Shown here piece by piece: positions 18,102-40,155 of a stretch of 64,000 bases of DNA; position 1 is the first letter of the stretch; the number at the start of each line of letters is the position of its first letter. The notes beneath the pieces were generated by a model. It saw nothing but the letters and a program-made list of their open reading frames with translations. It made no database searches and was not told the DNA's origin. The stretch comes from Paramacrobiotus metropolitanus (lineage: Eukaryota; Tardigrada; Eutardigrada; Parachela; Macrobiotidae). Position numbers and translations under genes: made by a program. The stretch spans positions 33,242 to 97,241 of the forward strand of contig NW_026570469.1 in assembly GCF_019649055.1 (NCBI RefSeq). Direction: 5' to 3'.

Positions 18102-19955
18102 TTATTCCTGTTCCACGTGTTCTTTAGCCACTTCTTCAGGATCAACATCATCTAGGCCATCCTCCGCGATATCGAACGTGCGACAGTTGCATTCATCTTG
18201 GGTTTTATGCTGATCGTTCTTACAGTACTCCGTCCACTGAATTAGCTGCTCGAAGTACAGAGAGTGGCTTCCTTCTGGCTTGTCGTTGATATCACGGGTG
18301 CCATATTCAGCAACGTCAGACATGAAACGACGGAGGTCACACCCTGTACCGCTACCAGAGAAATTACGGTGGTACAGCCACTCTTCCAGAGCAAGCCAAA
18401 TCCGAGTGTATTTAAATCCGTTGTGTTTCCGAATAAACCGTTTGATTTGGCTGTTGACACCCTCAACCGGGTTCGATGATACAATTACTCCTGCTTCCGT
18501 GACCTTCGAAAACTGACCTTCATGACCATAGTCGCCCCACTTTGGAATGTTGACGTACACTGCTGCGGCATCCGTATGTGCCATGGACCCCGGGAGCATG
18601 TGTCGAATAAAAATCGGCCTGATGGTGTCAGTGTCTGCATGACGGATGTGGTACACAACGGCTTTGTTGCTCCCTTTCTCACACAAAACCAGTATCATGA
18701 CCTTCCGGTCGGTCTTCACAACCCCGCTGCCTTCTGATTCCATCTCATGCAGACCGCGTTTCCGGTTTCCACGATGATATGTCCACTTGGTACCCAAGAA
18801 ACACTGAAAAAAGAAACTAAAAAACCTAAGAAACCTAAGAAGCCTAAGAAACCTAAGAAACATAAGAAACCTAAGAAACATAAGAAACCTAAGAAACATA
18901 AGAAACCTAAGAAACCTAAGAAAACCTAAGAAACCTAAGAAACCTAAGAAACCTAAGAAACCTAAGAGCCTAAGAAACCTAAGAGCCTAGGAAACCTAAG
19001 AAACTTAAGAAACCTAAGAACCTAAGAGCCTAAGAGCCTAAGAGCCTAAGAACCTAAGAAACCTGGAGAAACCTAAGAATCCTAAGAGCCTAAGAAAACT
19101 AAGAAACCTAAGAAACCTAAGAAACCTAAAGCCTAAGAAAACCTAAGAACCTAAGAAAACTAAAAACCTAAGAAACCTGAAACCTAAGAAACCTAAGAAA
19201 CCTAAGAGCCTAACAAAACCTGAGAAACCTAAGAAACCTAAAACCTAAGAACCTGAGAAACCTAAGAAACCTAAGAAACCTAAGAAACCTAAGAAACCTA
19301 AGAATAGTACTGATAGTTATAATAATAATAAAAACAAATAATTAATATACTAAATAAAATACATTCGTTAACTTACTTCATCAATATACACGATCTTGTT
19401 TGGTCCACCAAGCATTACAGGATTGAACGCGTTGTGAATGGCCAGCGCTTCCCGGATGTAGGTTGCATACTGCGACACTGTATTTTGATGGACCCCACAC
19501 TTTTCGGCAATCATGCTCTGGGTATATGAGCGCCAGTAGCTCATTTCACAAAACAAGGCCAGGACCTTCAAAACTCCTATTTTGCTGAAGTGGAGGAATT
19601 TGTCTCGGAACAGGCTTCTCTTCTTCGTACAGACGCACTGCAAAGTATAACGGTTCTCAACCCAACAGAGCTTCATCCATTTTCTGCACGCTCGGTCACC
19701 GCAGCGATGCTCTAAGTCGCACAGGCCAACCTCCGCCAGTAATACCAGTCCAGCGATGTGCTGCTGTTTGATGAAAGGCAAGCCACAACGACGGTCCACA
19801 TCATCTGACAGCACATGACTTAAATCTCCCTGTGCTGGTGCCGAATGCTCACCAACAAAACGTTGCACAACATCCCGGAGTTGAACTGACCAACCATCTC
19901 CATACGGAGGGCTGATAATACCAGCAAGAACGTTTAAATTCCAAGGTTCTTCCAT
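18102..19955 (-). CDS. Merlin-family (ISXO2-like) DDE transposase, two exons
   Basis: Exon 1 runs 19955-19377 (193 codons; ATG in AAAAATGG context). Exon 2 runs 18803-18102. The intron has a GTAAGT donor right after IDE and a TTTTTTCAG acceptor, and joining them in phase gives 426 residues. An HTH-like segment (AEKCGVHQNTVSQYATYIRE) precedes the catalytic domain. That domain starts KIVYIDE, continues GTKWTYHRGNRKRG as in IS1595/ISXO2 transposases, then AHTDAAAVY and NPVEGVNSQIKRF. The likely triad is D192, D271 and E307. The N-terminus has CxxC/CxxxC cysteines. No stop or frameshift is seen, so it could be active or domesticated. I did not find matching terminal inverted repeats by eye. Confidence 0.85.
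18815..19304. repeat. CCTAAGAAA satellite inside the transposase intron
   Basis: About 50 degenerate units (CCTAAGAAA, with CCTAAGAGC and CATAAGAAA variants) fill almost the whole 573-nt intron. On the coding strand the unit reads TTTCTTAGG, that is, a polypyrimidine tract ending in AG. The same satellite lies in FB1 at 1.2-1.4 kb. Confidence 0.95.
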
Positions 19956-29321: not shown

Positions 29322-29838
29322 GTAACCAGGGCACATAGGCATCCTCCAAATTCAAAAAATTCTCATATTTTGTAAAATGGTAGTGTAATTACTACTTACT
29401 ATTATAGTATGCTTAAAAAAATATTTTTATCTGCCATCGTCAAGGGGGCGTGGCCATTCAACAATTAAAAGTTTGCATACAATCACTGTGCAATGCAGTG
29501 CAGTAAAGGTTATTCGTAATTATATTATGTTACCTTTTTACTGCATCACCGTGGACTTTTGCAGCCGCCGCAAGTTGGCTTGTTTTGCGTCATTACTCGA
29601 CGGCTGTAAAAGTCCACGGTGATGCAGCAAAAAGGTAACAATCATAATAAAATTACGAATAACCTGTACAGCACTGCATTACACAATGATTGCATGCAAA
29701 CTTTTAATTGTTGTATGGCCACGGCCCTTTGACGATGGCAGATAAGAATATTTTTTTAAGCATACTACAATAGTACACTACCATTTTATAAAACATGAGA
29801 ATTTTTGAATTTGGAGGATGCCTATGTGCTCTGGTTAC
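29322..29838. mobile_element. fold-back element FB3
   Basis: A 517-bp near-palindrome. GTAACCAGGGCACATAGGCA at the left returns as TGCCTATGTGCTCTGGTTAC at the right. The inner arm CTGCATCACCGTGGACTTTT has a perfect complement on the other side of a short loop rich in TTGCGTCATTACTCG. Arms differ at scattered positions. There is no coding capacity. Confidence 0.85.
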
Positions 29839-30932: not shown

Positions 30933-31463
30933 TATCAAGAAGACCAAATTTGCCTCAGGAGGATACTTCGTTAAATATGACTGTAGAAGAGAGCATGTTT
31001 ATGCTACGTAACAACGATTCTACAGTTGCAGTTCCTTGGCGCTCAGTGCACGTACTATAAATCTTCGCCCGGTTCCGAAAGCCTTTTTCAGAATTATCGT
31101 TTGTGGGCCGATTGGCTCCCCAATTTGGCGGAAACTGCGTACAAGCAGCTAAGCTGCAGCTCGTGCGGCTGCGCATGTGTCCGCTGTGGAACAAATCGCA
31201 GGCTACCAGGGCCAAAATGTTCAAGCTTGTCGGTCGCCTATGATTTTGCTATTGCCGCTACGTGAAGTTTTCCGTGCGGTTGACACCGGCAAGCGCGAGC
31301 TCGCAAATTCAGAACGTGAAAACCCATATTTTCAATTTTCAGTTCTCATTCTTGCGTGCAGTTGTTTGAATGTGATTACTGTTTTCCTTTTTCCTACTGA
31401 AAAACTTTGTGACTGTTTTATTCATTTAATTTCTACATCTAGTTTCCATCAAACAGCTCTGAA

Positions 31464-33168
31464 ATGGATACAGTGTGGTATCCAGACGACGGGTTCACTG
31501 TTGCAGGAGATACTGTACTGACAACCGCAAATATGCGAAATCGCATTCAAGCAGCAGGGCTCCCGCAGCCGTTCACTGTCATCTGTCTTTCTCTCCGGAT
31601 TGTGAAGCAGTATTGCCCGACATTATTCCGTGGATGCCTGGCGGAGGAGACGTCCTTCACCTTGATGAAGGAGAAAAGCATCAGTCGCATCGATCTGCTG
31701 GGACTGCAGATTCTGGCGGATATTTATGGGTGAGTAAAAACACTGCCAGTACTGAGTACGAACGCGATCTCGCTTTATTTTGTGGGCCATTTAGTTATAG
31801 CGAAGAGTACCTCATCCCACCGGACGCATTCGAGGAGTTAGGATATAAGATCATCCGCAATATGGGATGCAAGGCAGTATGCGACTTCGCTTCGTAAGTT
31901 ATTCACCTCTTATTAAAATAATATGATTGTCCGATGACTGAATTCATGAATATTTTTTATTTTTCCGATATTATTCTGACGTTCATTTCTATTCAGATTT
32001 TAATTTTCATGTATTATATTAGTTGGATTTTAATGGCTTAAAATACTGTCCGTATAATTTTTCGTTTTTAATCTGAAAATAATGTGATGTGTGAAAATTT
32101 TTTAAGGTTTGTTGCGCGGAATAATGGGAATCCTGGAAAAATATGCGATATCGCATTGAATCCTTGCGCTGAGAAATCAGAAGCGGCATCGCAGGGTTGC
32201 TCGGAATACCTAACTCAATGGTTTGCCACACTTCTGGCGGCGGGAAAGATGTCCATCATTGGACCGATGTTTCGGATGGGCGGAGTGCCTGGAACGGTCA
32301 AGGTTGCTGGGGACGCCCTGTCCTATCATTTGGAACCAGAGAGCTGGAACTACCGGATGTTTATTCCAAATGGGGGCGGAATTGACTTGTCCGATGTTGA
32401 TCGGGCCCGGAAAATTGTCCATCGCTATGCTAGGGCGCAGCGCAGTTTTTCTAACGTGTGCGTATTCGCTTTGCTCTTATTTTGAAAACAATAATATGGT
32501 TTTTAATAAAATTAAAGCAATGTTGCTTGATTTTTTAGCGCTACTGAGAAGCGTTATCGCTGCCCCTTCTACTACAAGGTGGCTCGCAATCAGCATCCGG
32601 GAAATTATCGTGGCGACAGTGATCGGGGATACTGCGACACGATGTTTTCTGTAGACGGCCTGAATCAACACCTGATTGATGAGCATTTGGCTGTAGAGGT
32701 AAAGTTACGTTGTTTTTAAGCGATTTCGCTTTTTCATGGACATGTGGCGGATTACTGTCTGATTAAGCGCTATCGCTTTTTGAATACGCTTTTTCTTTAG
32801 AACCTGTTTGATGACTGCGTGGACTGCGGCCAGCTGTGGATTATACGTGGTGCTACGGCATGTGATGAACAGTGCTATTTGGCCGATCCCTCCATCAACT
32901 GCTTCAAAGCAAATCGCGTTCATTTCGCTAATCGAAAGTAAATATTTTTATAGTTTATTTGCGGATTACTGTTTTGTTTTCAAACAGGCTGCTTTGTAGG
33001 AAGCCGTCTGTTAACTTTCCGCAAGGTATTCGCGGAGTGCGGCTGGGTTTGAGCGCTACTTCGCTTAATGTGCTGCACGGATGGCGCAATGAGTACATGC
33101 GCTCTGGGATTAAAGTGTATGGATCCGGCAACAACTTTGTTTTGACTTTTGTTGTCGCTCGCGCCTAA
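31464..33168 (+). CDS. accessory gene 1 of the CACTA-like element, zinc-finger-like
   Basis: Six exons join without a break: 31464-31729, 31795-31893, 32107-32457, 32539-32698, 32801-32937 and 32988-33168 (397 residues). Introns are 49-213 nt with GTGAGT, GTAAGT, GTGCGT, GTAAAG and GTAAAT donors. Exon 3 is a globular unknown domain (QWFATLLAAGKMSIIGPMFR). Exon 4 has a C2H2-like finger of unusual spacing (RYRCPFYYK ... GYCDTMFSVDGLNQHLIDEH). Exon 5 adds CVDCG and CDEQC pairs. It is probably a DNA-binding protein, analogous in position to the TNPA-type partner of plant CACTA transposases. The family is not recognised. Several GCGA-N2-TCGC copies fall inside its exons and introns. Confidence 0.65.
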
Positions 33169-33804
33169 GCGATCTCGCGTTTCCTCGCAGCTTTTAATGC
33201 TGATAGAGTAACGGGGATCTTCTTTTGACTTTTGACGATTAAGCGATGTCGCTTCGTTGTTGTGAACTGAAATGAAGATCTCCATATTGATTTGTTTTGT
33301 ACTAGTATATTGAGCAACTTTGTAGTCATCTGAAAAGTGACTTTCCTGAAAGGATCTTATGTTAGTTGTTAGACTTGCAGTCTTGCATGTCATGGGCATG
33401 CTGAAATGCATTCTTTTATATTGCTCTTATGGAATTGTTTTGTGTTGTTGACAAGCTGTACGGATGACGCTCATTTTATTTTAATTAAATTTCTTGACAT
33501 ACGAACGCACTCCAAAGAAACATCAAAGTTCTAATAAAAAACAAAAATGATTCGGAATACGGATATAAACGTCATACCGTTATGAAAGAAAGAAACAAAT
33601 TAACAGTTTAATTACACAAAAAATTAAATCAGCAACAAAGATAAATTAATCGTAATAATATAATAATCGGGGCAACATCGCGCCAATCTTCAGCGTTTCG
33701 TCGTCGTCGTACGGCATCTCAAGAGGAACACCAGAAAACATATCAGCCGTCACGACAGCGTACTCGCTTTTCCAATTATATAACTTGTGTGCTGGCAGCG
33801 TCCA

Positions 33805-36256
33805 CTATAAATTGTAGATCTTCTGTGAAGCGATTTCGCTTTTCTCACAAAGCAATACAACGGAGCCAGCAAGGTGGACGGCAAAGCGGAATCGCCAAAA
33901 ATTACCGCCACGGCAGTAAAATAAAGCGTTCGCAAAGTGATCACGCACGGACTCGTTGCTGTCCGGCACAAACCCTTTTACTATGATTTTCGAATGAACT
34001 GCATGATCCACGTTATCCAGGCACAGATGACGTTCCGTAGCATAATTTTGCAAAGTCTTCCAAGCTGAATAGCATTCGCTGGCAATGACTTTATGCGACT
34101 TCGCATTTCCGATAAGATAACAGCTACCAGCATTAAAAGCAGTCGCATACAGGTTTGCTGAACTGTTATTTTCTAACACACGCAGCACGCGTGGCGTCAT
34201 TAGGTCGAGTGGCTGCCGCGCCAAATTTTCTGCTAAGCTTTCCGCAATTTTGCATAATCTGATCGAATTAGCGATCTCGCGTGGTACCTGATTGTAACCA
34301 TGAATGTTCCGCTCGATGCATCCGATATTTCCTTCGAAAGGAAACGCGCTGTATCCGGCCGCCGTTCCAAAATCGGGACAAGACTGTCCAAGATGGAGTG
34401 TCAGGTGGACGTTGTAGGGCATGAAGTCTTCCCCGAAAACTTCCTCGGCTTTTTTCCAAAAATCGTTCGCTTCCTTGTCAATACATTCGGTATCTTCATG
34501 CGATATCGCATCTTGAAAGGCTCGCGTAGCCGTACTGCAGTACAGACACCAAACTTCGAACTCTTCCAATGTAAAAACATTGTGGAACAAATAAATGCCG
34601 GTGTACAGTATATCCCTCCATTCGTTTGCATTCAGTTTAGACGCTTCGTTAAACCCTCGAAATTTCCGGGATACAACAGCAGGAAAATCTAGCTCGTTCC
34701 CCCGTTCATTTATTGATGCGATTCCGCTTTTGGTTACATTGCACGCAAAATAGATTTGCGGTGCAACACCTTTGCAGCAATTATGCATGATGTCGACCGG
34801 GAAGGCACGAGCCGGGTCAAAATGGGGAACAACTTCCAATGGCGACTTTCGCAAATTCCTGTGTAAATCTTGTCCTTTTTAGCCTTCTCGCGATGCTCCA
34901 CGGAGTACTGCATAATGTCTTTAGCGAGACTGCGAATTTCCGCATCATTTCGGAGCGGCGCCTGATGCGAAGTCGCATAAATGTAGACCTGGCGGTTTTC
35001 CCTGTGCACAGGAGTTGCTTTGCAGTATGTGCATCCGCCAACGTAGGCATGTATGGATCCAATACCGGCAAGCGGAAGCCGCTCCATAGTGTCTGCCACC
35101 ACAGCTGTCAATATGACGCGGATCCGCTTCTGCTCTCCGATAAATTCACCAACATCCCTTCAGTTGATAACTTAATTAACTGGGATAAAAAAGGACGCAG
35201 GATAACTTTACGATGCGGAAACTTTGTCGCGTTGCCGATATATATACTGTGCAGGATTAAAGAGCGGAATCGCTTTCTTCCAGGAAAATCCGCAAATACA
35301 AACTGCACAACATGTCCTTTTAAATCAGACGAATTTGTCAGCGCAAATCCGTCCATGTGAGCCAATATCGTCACCACGTCATCGTCAAAATTTTTGTCGC
35401 GATAAAATTTACCGTTTGTTAAACTCGGTTGATCCACGAGAAGACTGTGAGCGATATCGCTTCCTTTCTGCCAAAACGGATTTCAGCTCTTGTGCATGGT
35501 CTTCCAAAAATTTGCGAACTTGCTCCTCAAGGTCCATCACGAGAAGGCAATTTTGGTGTAAATCACAGAGTGCAATTTTGTGCGGCCGTCGACCAGTTCG
35601 AGTTATCCCATTGCACACAAAGTCCACGTTGGTTTTCTCGCTCGCCGTCCGAGTTCCGACAATGCAATGGTGCGTAGGGCAAAAATAGTAATACGACACT
35701 TCATGCGAGAACGCTTCCACACTGCGAAATAATTTCTCCAAAAAATACAGATTCGGTGGGAACTGAATGTTTGCATCTCCGGCTAACAGCTCGAACAAGG
35801 AATGCACAACTTCTAGCTCCGCCTCCAGCTGCGTTTTTGTGTTGAAAAATCTTTGCCATTTTCGCATGGTAATTAACAGATAATTCTGCTCTTCCAAGCT
35901 AAGAGGATGCGATTTCGCTTCTGCGGTAACAACAACGTCACTATCCAATTCTTCGTCCACACAGGGAACGACTCTGGTTCTCCGTCACAGCTGCCAATAA
36001 TACGCAATATTTTGATTTTTTTTGGAAGAAACGCCAAGAAACTAACTCCAGCAATCGCTTACCTTGCGACATCGCATTCCAAAATGTCCGTTGGTGGTTC
36101 TTCAAAGTCAGAATCAGCGGCACAGGCTCCGTCGACAACATCCATGTTCTCTTCATTGCCTGAGCGCAATCGCCAGCGATACTTCGTGGTCTTTGGGACG
36201 ATAAAATTTCCGTAATCGCCCAACGGGTAACGGCCATAGCCCCGCCGCTTAGCCAT
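33805..36256 (-). pseudogene. Tnp2-family (CACTA/EnSpm) transposase, three frame breaks
   Basis: Exon 1 is 36256-36063 (MAKRRGYGRYPLGDYG), with a GTAAGC donor. Exon 2 begins near 35973 and runs to a stop at 33805. Tnp2 landmarks appear in order: YYYFCPTHHCIVG; GKFYRD; ILAHMDGFALTNSSDLKGHV; VILTAVVADTMERLPLAGIG; HAYVGGCTYCKA; KSPLEVVPHFDPARAFPVDI followed by MHN; MPYNVHLTLHLGQSCPDFGT; and SAFPFEGNIGCIERNIHGYN. D in HMDGF and D in VVADTM are candidate catalytic residues. The reading frame changes near 35,450, within the GGG near 35,155, and near 34,845, each by a single base. The gene is therefore a pseudogene, needs recoding, or carries assembly errors. It sits between two unbroken accessory genes. 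Confidence 0.85.
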
Positions 36257-36721
36257 TTACTGCCAAGTAACGCGAACTCGCGCAAGCATATGACAACTAA
36301 CTGTTAAACTATGCGCTTTCGCAAAATCTGTAAAAAGAAAATTTTAAAAAAAACAGTTACTTTAAATAAATACTTCAAACTGAAAACGAATAAAAGTTTG
36401 ATGCGAAGATCGCCTGGAAGATTTTTGCGAGTGACCAGTTCAACATGATTACTGTATTATGCTATTTGCTATTGGTTACGTGTCAAGAAAACAAATTTGA
36501 TTGGATTGAAGGTGGGCCACACTCAGTTCGATTCAGAAATGAGCTCGCAGCTTCATTTCCTGGTTGCGATACCAACACGCAGAACAGTTTCAGTTTGAAC
36601 AACTGAAGAGTTGTTTTCAAATTTCTGAGCATACGTTTTCTGACTTTATCTGAAATTCTTACGGCTAAGTACGACTAAAACAAACATTAAAATAGTAACT
36701 TTTAACTTTATTCTACAGAAA

Positions 36722-39009
36722 ATGTCTGACCGCGGGGCTAGAGGCGGCCGCAAAACTCGAGGAACACGGGGAACACGAGGAACACGCGGAGGTCGCGGCC
36801 GTGGTCGTGGTGCTGCTTCTCAGCCACAAGCGGAATCGCCTCTTAGTACCACCACTGCGATCTCTCCGATCCAGTCGTTCAAAAGCGCTCTTGGATCGCA
36901 CGAACAAAATCAAGGTACACATTTTTTTTAGTACGACATTAAGTTGTGCGCGAACGCATTTTTGCAGATATTATCGTCGTGCGATTCGCAGTGGACGATC
37001 TTGTCCTCTTCTGGCCAGCAAGCGATGAACGCTTTAAAGCCACTCCGGGCAACATGTATAAGTTCCCGTTTCGCCCCGGAACTCATCTGCAGGCTGAACA
37101 TACGTCAGTTTTTTACGATGCCAGCGTCCTGTACATCACAAACAACCAAGAAGACGCAGACGAGCAAGTTCAGTTTATTCAGCAACAGGATCAGGTACAA
37201 AACAGGGTTTTGAGTAGCGAAAATCTGTATGGCATTCGCATCGATGAGTTGGTGTACTGAGTTTTAAGCGATATCGCCTTAATTAGACTACTGTTGGAGA
37301 GTGAGCGAACATTAGCGAACTGCGCGTCTTGCTCTTAGTCTTACTTCAGGGATTTTTCAGCTTCAGAAAAAAGGTTCAGCAGTAGAAAATGCGAACTCGC
37401 AAAAGAAGGCCCAGAAGCTATTGTCAGCGGATCTTCAGAATGTGTCAAACGTTATCGTTCTTGACGGTAAATTTTGGATTTCTTTCACAGTTCATTTTAT
37501 TAATTTTTAATTTTAAAGATGATATTGCCGATCCTTCTGCTGATTACGATCCAGGTATTTTTATGCAACATTTTAAATTTGTGTTTATCTGTTTTATGAT
37601 AAAATCTTTGCGGTTTAACTTTAGAAACCGCGGACACTCACTCGGTTGAAGCTGCTGAGGAGATTGAGGAGACGGACAATGTCGATCATGCTGATAAGGA
37701 TATGGCACCTGCGGCGCCCCAAGCGACTTCGCTCATGGGTACTGTTTTAAAACTCTCGGTAAAGTTTAACACTTGAGTTTTAATCATTTCAGCAAATGCA
37801 CTCGTTCCATCGGCGTCCCATGCAGGTGCGGAAAAGAAACCAAGTAAGTAATCATTTGTAAGCGGATCGCTTTTATTCAAAAACCTATTAAACTATTCTT
37901 CTTTAGCCAATGCGCCGAGAGTGTATCCACCCTCAAAAAGTGCATTTAGTGGCAACAATTTAACTCCAATGAGTAAGCCGAAATTTGCGGTATCGCTTGT
38001 GTGCAAAGTGTGTCATTTTAGATATGATTTCTTAGGTTTACTGAAGGAAAAAGCGATGACGCGTCCGCTCTCTTCGTCCAATCAGCTTAGCGGTGGACGC
38101 GTTTTCGCCTCCGGTGTCGCGGTCCCTCCGCCTTCACCATCTAAGCGCGCTGCTGGTACATAAGTATTGCTTGCATACCCAATAATTCGTTACTGAATTA
38201 TTCCGGTTTTCAGGACAAAGCGACACTGCAGATTCCGATGACAGTCGACAAACCAACAGTGGCCAACCTGTAAACGCGAAATCGCAACGAGGTATTTATT
38301 TTCAGTATTTATTATTGTGGCTTGAAGGTTTTTCTAAGTTGAGATGTTTTCCAGCTACCAAAAGCCGCAAAAGCGACACCATCGCTGAGGCAGGACTCGA
38401 AGGTAGATTTCTAAAGCGACTCGCTTAAACTCCGCCTACGATAATAACGTATGCTAAACAGCACGGCCTTTGTAACTTTTTCTAGATCACCTCATGAAGT
38501 TTCCATTCAAAATTAAAGGGCCGAAAAAGATAGAGCTTGTTTCAAAAATGCCTGGTGATCCAATTTGGATCGAAGAAGTGATGCATGCCCGACTGGTTGT
38601 CGCCGGCAAATTAGAAACTCCCTCGAAATGGCTAAAGATGCTAATGGGATACCTGATCCAGGGGACGGCCGACTACAAAGGCGATGGGATTCGGCTGCTG
38701 TATGAGAAGCGGATGCAGTTCATCGCCGACAACGCGCATAATCCCAACAGCCAGCCGGGGATTAAGGCACTTCTCGGGGAATCATTCATCGTCGCGGTTG
38801 AGGGTAAATTTTGTTTGCAAAAACAATAAACGATATTGTTTACGAAATTTCTGGCGACATTTGAATTTTGTGTTACAGCGTATTTTTCGGCTGTACACAT
38901 GACAGCCCGAGGGAAAGGACTGCAGCCAGGCATGGTGACGGCGGCTTTCAATGCCTGGAAGGACTATCACGTCAGAACGTATGCTAAAAAGCACGGCCTT
39001 CCTTGGTGA
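36722..39009 (+). CDS. accessory gene 3 of the CACTA-like element, RG-rich N-terminus
   Basis: Twelve exons join in phase to 495 residues: 36722-36914, 36968-37194, 37361-37466, 37519-37554, 37625-37738, 37793-37843, 37907-37972, 38036-38155, 38214-38291, 38355-38402, 38486-38803 and 38879-39009. Ten of eleven introns are phase 1. The N-terminus is arginine/glycine-rich (RGTRGGRGRGRGAA), an RGG-type nucleic-acid-binding tail. Exons 2-3 give a globular part followed by a coiled-coil-like stretch (FIQQQDQLQKKG). Exons 4-10 form a disordered acidic/serine linker. The last two exons form a folded domain (EEVMHARLVVAGKLETPSKW ... GLQPGMVTAAFNAWKDYHVR). The length and tryptophans recall BEN-type domains only loosely. 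Function is unknown; a transposition co-factor is my inference. Confidence 0.7.
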
Positions 39010-40155
39010 TTTCCGTATTAAACGCGACTTCGTTTCCTCCGTCGACTACGGTGTTTCTCAGAAACTGGTAATTTCTTTTGTTTTATTGAATATTCATTGT
39101 TGGTTGTTGCGCGCGCTATCGCTTGACAAAGGGCAATGCGATTCCGCTTTTGGTATTATAGTGGTGGCTATCGAATTGACTTTGTGGAGTATATATATAG
39201 TTCGAATTCTAATATAAAGTTTTTCTCTCAGTGTTGTGATGTTACAGTTGTGTTTTCTTTTTTGTGACAGTATAAGCCAATAACTGCTGTTATTGCGAGC
39301 AGTCTTGAACTGGTGTTACTGATTTTGGATTTTTCTTGATTAAAATCATAGCAGATTATTATATTTGCAGTGCTGTCAGTAATAAACAGCAGTACAAGAA
39401 GCGCGACAGTGCACGTTTTTCACATGCGGCTTTCATTGGTTTTCGTGCCAATTAATAGCAAGATTGCATTTATTTTGTCTCTGCGTAGTACTCAGACAAC
39501 GCTTCCCTAACATCTCGACCGCGCTCCCACATAACATGCGCAGTACTCACGTCGTATGGTGTTCGTAAAAAAATAGGGTTCCAATTTTAGCACTGATTCG
39601 TACGAAAATCTAAATCAATTAATGGCAGCCTATGGGATCTGCATAGGCAATGTGCACGGATTAAGTAAGAAGGAAGCAGGCCTTATTTAGCAAAGAATCC
39701 ATTCTTAAAAATGAGGCTTTTCGGAACCGGGTCGGCAGTATGGAGCCCGCTTGGTTGATTACAATAAATCAAAGAATTTTTTTATTTGCTCTACATGTTG
39801 CTTCATTTTGTAAAATAATATTATGTTAAAATAGGTAAATAGGAGGTTGATTGTGTTAGTCATTATATTCACGTAATTACTTACAATACGTGCTAATTAG
39901 AACATCGGAGACTGCGATACATAAAGGTTTTTTATGTCATCACTAATAAAAATTAATAGGCTGTTAAAGATCTTTACGGTTATGTATACTTATATGTATT
40001 ATGTTATTGATAAAAATCGCAGTGCTGTATATGCACCTTTTGTCCTTATCGGTGTATCTGTCTACCGGAGAAACAAATTTGTATGCAGACAGTATTGATG
40101 CATGGCGCCATGGCAACACAGTCATAAAATCCTGAAAGACAACTCCGCGCAATGC

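Follow-up and report, generated by a model that had tools for sequence, protein, structure and literature searches.

A 64-kb stretch of the genome of the tardigrade Paramacrobiotus metropolitanus (contig NW_026570469.1, positions 33,242 to 97,241; the whole stretch is called the window, and positions are counted from its first letter) was found to hold a transposon whose body, codons included, is studded with one palindromic word, GCGANNTCGC, in which the arms GCGA and TCGC enclose two free bases. The arms of this word were conserved at given sites between the window element and a diverged relative, in coding and intron sequence alike. Other transposon families of the same genome carried arrays of other palindromes; word and family were paired almost exclusively, and the arrays had limits at the edges of the element or array. 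As a functional DNA feature the array is well supported, and the words are very probably sites that function at the level of DNA. We suggest tentatively, with slightly less than even confidence, that they are private address codes: a palindrome peculiar to the family, placed every 250-450 bp along the body of the element, codons included, and an encoded reader by which the element would be treated as one unit, that is, kept open or shielded from itself.

Twenty-one exact copies of the word were counted in the window, where 0.82 would be expected and 100 shuffles gave three at most; none lay outside the element. A preliminary description, made from the letters of the window, had given the same count against about one by chance and had placed the array within an independently defined transposon, and both statements held, the ends of the element being backed by inverted repeats and a TCG duplication. 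Its figure of about ten near copies was too low, as 22 one-mismatch copies were found at 31,295-39,147. With up to one mismatch allowed the window held 53 copies, 43 of them at 31,295-39,147 and 10 outside, and the mismatch fell on the inner A or T in 17 of the 22 near copies. For the wider core GCG-N4-CGC the element gave 41 occurrences, and the remaining 55 kb of the window 11. When all 256 palindromes of the 4-2-4 form were tested, GCGA alone was enriched (21 in the window element and 22 in its relative; the next highest reached 3 in the window element), and GCGA..TCGC with other spacer lengths gave just 0-2 copies. By our gene models, coding exons held 14 of the exact sites and introns 3; the other 4 were in leader or spacer sequence. 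Exact sites were 74-996 bp apart (mean 349), the first lying 227 bp inside the left end, the last 1,446 bp short of the right end; for core sites these distances were 97 and 584 bp.

The description had proposed a genome-wide count as a check on the claim. This gave 2,239 copies, or about 1 per 76 kb of the 169.8-Mb genome, against 2,550 for a reversed control, and the word is not enriched across the genome as a whole. A 14-base form, AWGCGANNTCGCWT, occurred 52 times, with at least nine copies in the window element and at least seven in the relative. Four 14-base sites of the GCGANNTCGC type, with gaps of 159, 145 and 159 bp, were also seen at C6:2696322-2696798, the only other cluster of this form among the matches listed.

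The relative, at about C9:2010650-2019390, is collinear, full-length or nearly so, and has 22 exact sites of its own; it was the sole such copy found. The two elements were 59.7% identical over 8,388 aligned columns. In a MAFFT alignment 13 of the 21 exact window sites were exact at the same place (10/14 coding, 3/3 intron), and 27 of the 41 core sites were kept; among 143 letter-permuted control words, 3 of 25 instances were kept. By position, the eight arm bases were conserved at 73-100% and the centre at 50-59%, with flanks varying like the centre; around the introns with kept sites the flanks were 44-56% identical. In a deleted copy, C242, five of eight comparable sites were exact. An alignment of this kind may draw similar words together, a weakness of which protein-guided codon counts are free. 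Such counts were made over 1,543 codons, a window position under two overlapping frame pieces being counted once. Arm bases agreed at 14/14 fourfold-degenerate sites, against 166/409 (41%) elsewhere (p 5e-6), and at 27/28 third positions, against 688/1,494 elsewhere (p 3e-8). Since arm bases are kept at fourfold sites, it is the word as DNA that is under selection. At some sites the free middle bases and the amino acids had changed while the arms were kept (CDFA to GEFA, CDIA to CELA, ANS to ASS).

A transposase search of the genome gave 29 matches, counted as 20 distant loci beside close kin and relics. Ten of the distant loci were read (the other ten being C290, C32, C360, C76, C320, C141, C19, C9:195 kb, C11 and C116), and eight of those read carried another palindrome in a similar arrangement; two carried none. 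The words were GGAWWTCC, GGAGCTCC, and GTCGAC within GGTCGACC or TGTCGACA. Locus C87 held 33 copies of GGA-NN-TCC (GGANNTCC) over the 11.5 kb examined, 29 with an A/T centre, and C168, about 70% identical to it in matched patches, held 37. At C109, 10.4 kb contained GGAGCTCC 24 times. GTCGAC was counted 22 times at C105 (12 as GGTCGACC), 17 times at C122 (7 as TGTCGACA, 6 as GGTCGACC), 19 times at C57 (9 as TGTCGACA, 6 as GGTCGACC), and 13 and 14 times at the partly read loci C214 and C46. These elements are not independent and fall into five kin groups: window/C9/C242, C87/C168, C105/C214/C46, C122/C57, and C109 alone; the GTCGAC core is common to the third and fourth.

A table of motif by element was nearly diagonal for words of 8 and 10 bases; the 6-base GTCGAC alone also occurred 5 times in the window element and 8 times in the 55 kb outside. 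Where flanks were examined the arrays ended, with site-free margins of 0.9 to 2.8 kb; at C87 and C168 the sequence ends about 0.1 kb past the first site, short of the left array edge. Word density was 2.1-4.2 per kb inside transposase frames and 2.4-3.9 outside, and words within these frames were seen in six other elements as well. Nine of the 10 elements, some of which are related, had spacing more even than expected from uniform placement (coefficient of variation, p < 0.05). Sites in the transposase frame were exact in the partner in 7/9 cases from C87 to C168 and in 3/6 from C105 to C122 (protein identity 44%); the 6/6 from C105 to C46 and 5/5 from C122 to C57 come from pairs too close to inform, and codon tests in those two pairs were non-significant. 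For C87/C168 third positions were significant (14/18 and 15/22 vs 403/849), and for C105/C122 the codon tests were mixed (p 0.015 to 0.098). In 20 control pieces drawn from this genome, every spread palindrome stayed at five copies or fewer. The filter used in that test required three or more letters in the half-word and thereby removed GGAG, which left C109 with a score of 3; C122 scored 5, equal to the top control, with its word split between GGTCGACC and TGTCGACA.

A palindrome of fixed spacing, with halves that vary independently of each other (50 sites, three elements) and DNA conserved in exons and introns, points to the site of a symmetric dimer. The pair outside the arms had been called usually symmetric; it was complementary in 23 of the 50 sites against 18.1 expected (p 0.086), which is non-significant beyond composition. 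Tests for covariation in excess of composition found none, with p 0.086 and 0.49 for the outer pairs and 0.55 for the centre. As families have different words, and the host genome shows no excess of the window word, a family-encoded reader is the most likely one, and the words are probably read by a protein of the element itself. The best candidate is the product of gene 3, slightly favoured here because the gene was found in four of the five array-bearing kin groups and because a copy of the word lies just past the stop in three places: 14 nt past it in the C9 homologue (exact), 14 nt past it in the window (one mismatch), and 13 nt past the stop of a relative on C17, where it is the only exact GCGANNTCGC in 16 kb.

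All-against-all and pairwise translated searches showed a gene with both gene-3 domains in C87/C168 and C105/C122, and the N-terminal domain of the window gene had matches at C122 (E 5e-5) and at C57 (E 0.012). Profiles built for gene 3 found the gene in the window, C9, C87, C168, C105, C122 and C57, the N domain in C46 and C214, and the C domain on C17; most of these were rows used in the building, to which C57, C46 and C214 did not belong. Genome searches with the C-terminal exons gave 3 places for the C87 query and 16 for the C105 query; homologues of gene 3 lie also at C76, C116, C11, C9:202066, C82, C29, C206 and C320. The C-terminal domain is likely, as judged from sequence, to be homologous across families. 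On C17 three gene-3-like C-terminal domains stand within about 15.5 kb (at 1128103, 1133074 and 1143297), found by queries from three different transposon families at 64%, 50% and 37% identity; they may be a host cluster or old elements. Under the address-code proposal they would be relatives of the reader gathered in a gene cluster, and the words, four or more in this genome, would have diversified together with their readers, in an arms race or as a means of telling self from non-self, with no need of DNA methylation.

According to the model proposed, each family would have its own palindrome array along the element and its own dimeric protein to read it, putatively the gene 3 product. A dimer bound every few hundred bp would coat or mark the whole element; the evenness and coverage of the words suggest that each occupied site would serve a few hundred bp. 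The coated element might then stay in open, transcribable chromatin and escape host silencing, an action like that of VANC in the VANDAL elements of Arabidopsis yet independent of DNA methylation. From the sequences we infer protein binding, the identity of the reader and the anti-silencing role alike. The whole model, from family-own array and dimer (likely gene 3) to coating and anti-silencing, is put forward with slightly less than even confidence, and the choice of anti-silencing over any other role is more doubtful by itself; among roles the favoured order is anti-silencing, a guard against self-insertion, then transposition. Binding sites for an accessory protein, possibly anti-silencing, had been among the first suggestions for the array and are still the best reading; the sites themselves stood, and the function attached to them is conjectural.

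The closest working analogue is VANC. There a short word is concentrated in one VANDAL transposon family, related families have different words, and an element-encoded VANC protein reads them, with an effect that spans the whole element and results in loss of DNA methylation (PMC5735166, PMC10398659). The concentration of a short word in a transposon family was likewise found here. VANC words are described as lying in non-coding regions, in tandem repeats, and as rapidly diverging (PMC5735166, PMC10398659), whereas here single palindromes are dispersed, 14 of 21 in coding exons and not as non-coding tandem repeats, and their positions have held through deep divergence. Genes 1 and 3 matched no Pfam family above the cut-off, a result that speaks neither for nor against a protein of the VANC type. 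Tardigrades are predicted to be without DNMT1 and DNMT3 (PMC8821070), which makes a literal VANC mechanism unlikely.

That last point counts against the anti-silencing model, and so do several others. None of the four leader or spacer sites was kept in C9, where the spacer alignment is unsure, and the sites of C9 showed no evenness of spacing beyond chance (p 0.33). The fourfold test for C87/C168 was non-significant (2/3 and 3/7). The long-form GGA word CNNGGAWWTCCNNG was over-represented genome-wide (828 vs 160 in the reversed control), so that the GGA word may not be private to C87/C168; the excess may reflect more such elements or a host motif. No spread palindrome was found around the transposases of C235 and C149, whose frames are short (353 and 355 aa) and whose copies may be incomplete; C149 holds instead a tandem array with units like AATCTAAGAA. 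Gene-3 profiles found nothing in C109, despite its strong array, nor in C235 and C149. Profile-profile scores for the C-terminal domain between families were low, and at the C17 locus neither did the window word form an array nor was another palindrome enriched. Finally, the transposase diverges between families in parallel with gene 3, and the words therefore cannot reveal which of the two proteins reads them. The relics C185, C245 and C55 resembled the C17 locus in holding neither a window-word array nor any other palindrome in excess.

Two other roles are each unlikely, though they keep the DNA-level site. The first is a barrier to autointegration, or target immunity, in which bound protein would make the element's own DNA an unfit target and sites would be needed near every stretch. 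The covering of the whole element, codons included, the fairly even spacing with few long gaps, and the separate terminal repeats of C122 and C57, which leave end-binding to other sites, would fit such a barrier; the long site-free ends of some elements, such as the core-free right end of the window element (584 bp), would not. The terminal repeats are a GGTTAC/GGTAAC block at one end (C122:125014-125888, C57:561329-562104), and as the block lies outside the palindrome array, terminal repeats and dispersed words are separate in these two elements.

The second is a transposition complex, in which transposase or an accessory protein on the dispersed sites would fold or recognise the cargo in the manner of TNPA, body-wide. 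CACTA (En/Spm) elements have TNPA, an element-encoded accessory DNA-binding protein, with subterminal repeats and family-specific repeated motifs (PMC2613891). The elements here resemble them in a candidate accessory DNA-binding protein with family-specific motifs and in the 3-bp target duplication, TCG/TCG in the window and TTG/TTG at the ends of the C9 relative, and the TNPA repeats are perhaps the closest comparison by descent. They differ in that their ends begin CCCGG (CCCGGTT) and not CACTA, and in that the words run through the body, whereas CACTA repeats lie within the terminal few hundred bp. Words not clustered at ends argue against a transposition complex, as do the deleted C242 and end-only pieces on C7 and C13, which match the ends with few or no words and which may or may not have moved as such. 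The body-wide placement, and the terminal block of C122/C57 apart from the palindromes, also make the likeness to plant subterminal arrays drawn in the preliminary description a poor one. A search of Pfam gave no tnp2 match for the transposase; the sole trace was a DUF4218 match of the C9 protein (LOC129583135) at E 0.09, below the cut-off, a domain of plant CACTA transposases.

A host-side reader is improbable to a further degree: the gene-3-related proteins of C17, with three such C-terminal domains in a cluster, might bind the words and silence or control the elements, but selfish elements would be expected to shed, not retain, sites for a host silencer. A signal in RNA, with the palindromes as transcript hairpins, has very little in its favour beyond the position of all 13 kept sites in exons or introns and the possibility of a GCG/CGC stem with a 4-base loop; the lack of covariation beyond composition, the presence of sites on genes of both strands, and the loop-free words of C109 and C105 (GGAGCTCC and GTCGAC) speak against it. 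That the arrays arose by chance, from composition or codon use, or through the recent duplication of some small unit is scarcely credible: an alignment that pulls words together and the bare GTCGAC outside its elements are all that could be cited for it, against the shuffles, the 255 other palindromes, the permuted words, the 20 control pieces and the protein-guided codon test, the last of which refutes it for the window element and C9.

Two origins raised earlier were rejected. The likeness to the HIP1 repeat proved superficial, an origin of that kind or from composition being ruled out by the spacer, permuted-word and control-piece tests; and scars of an insertion process are disfavoured, as flanks share no more than 1-2 bases, the sites hold their positions between deeply diverged copies, and the words are different in other families. 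In bacteria, single palindromes scattered over long stretches, genes included, are represented by matS (read by MatP), the SlmA sites and HIP1 of cyanobacteria, and matS and SlmA sites are read by a dimeric protein. These mark chromosome regions and not one transposon, and do not form family-specific words every few hundred bp. Among the matches listed in searches of open-licence literature, none described transposons with family-specific palindromes spread over the whole element, subscription journals lying mostly outside that scope, and the available text of a tardigrade transposon survey makes no mention of such words (PMC11071193).

That a word is kept in codons while other fourfold sites agree at 41% means that something reads the DNA of the element lengthwise. 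With several words and a mostly common accessory gene in one genome, self-recognition by transposons becomes directly testable. Should the reader prove to be an anti-silencing protein, the system would be better placed with the VANC kind, and it would be a route coded in sequence, in a lineage of animals for which absence of DNA methylation is predicted. The readers would moreover be natural dimeric DNA-binding proteins whose targets are known.

The features of the window element are collected in Table 1. Its 3-bp duplication lies just outside the ends (31,065-31,067 and 39,732-39,734). Gene 3 (homologue in C9, LOC129583136) has an RG-rich start, an N-terminal domain at about 36969-37200, an acidic linker, and a C-terminal domain split over two exons (about 38485-38805 and 38877-39006).

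Table 1. Features of the transposon in the window (window positions).
Feature	Position	Strand	Remarks
Transposon, 8,664 bp	31068..39731	.	ends read from sequence; collinear relative on contig C9
Left terminal inverted repeat CCCGGTTCCGAAA	31068..31080	+	supports element end
Right terminal inverted repeat	39719..39731	-	supports element end
Gene 1, LOC129601544, 393 aa, multi-exon	31464..33168	+	
Gene 2, transposase-like	33646..36256	-	frame broken here, open in the C9 copy
Gene 3, RG-rich start, multi-exon	36722..39009	+	exon model of this report, partly confirmed by the C9 homologue
21 exact GCGANNTCGC	31295..38285	.	exact-match count
Exact GCGANNTCGC, starts 1-11	31295, 31535, 31764, 31881, 32145, 32720, 33169, 33243, 33830, 34095, 34271		
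Exact GCGANNTCGC, starts 12-21	34500, 34967, 35451, 35909, 36066, 36272, 37268, 37391, 37723, 38276		
22 one-mismatch GCGANNTCGC copies among exact ones	32183..39147	.	mismatch search
One-mismatch GCGANNTCGC site	39024..39033	.	14 nt past gene 3 stop

All seven gene-3 C-terminal domains searched were without a Pfam match, BEN (PF10523) included; a search of the genome with PF10523 gave no match, and neither did its control. A BEN or chromo/Tudor-like nature of gene 3 was rejected, being a likeness by eye with non-significant profile matches in the PDB, where the best E values were 0.028 and 0.059 with the N domain and 1.3 with the C domain. Structure predictions were poor, with a mean predicted local confidence (pLDDT) of 37 for gene 3 and 33 for gene 1.

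Sequences that match the window element at its left end only were seen at C7:587227-587509 and C13:136121-136156 and are possibly solo ends or small derivatives. Elsewhere in the window, an inverted repeat at 29500-29672 (arms of 43 nt, 93% complementary, with a further pair of arms, 30 nt each, on the outside) resembles a small element, and tandem arrays with units like AAGAAACCT or AACCTAAGA were present at 18811-19304 and 1213-1378.

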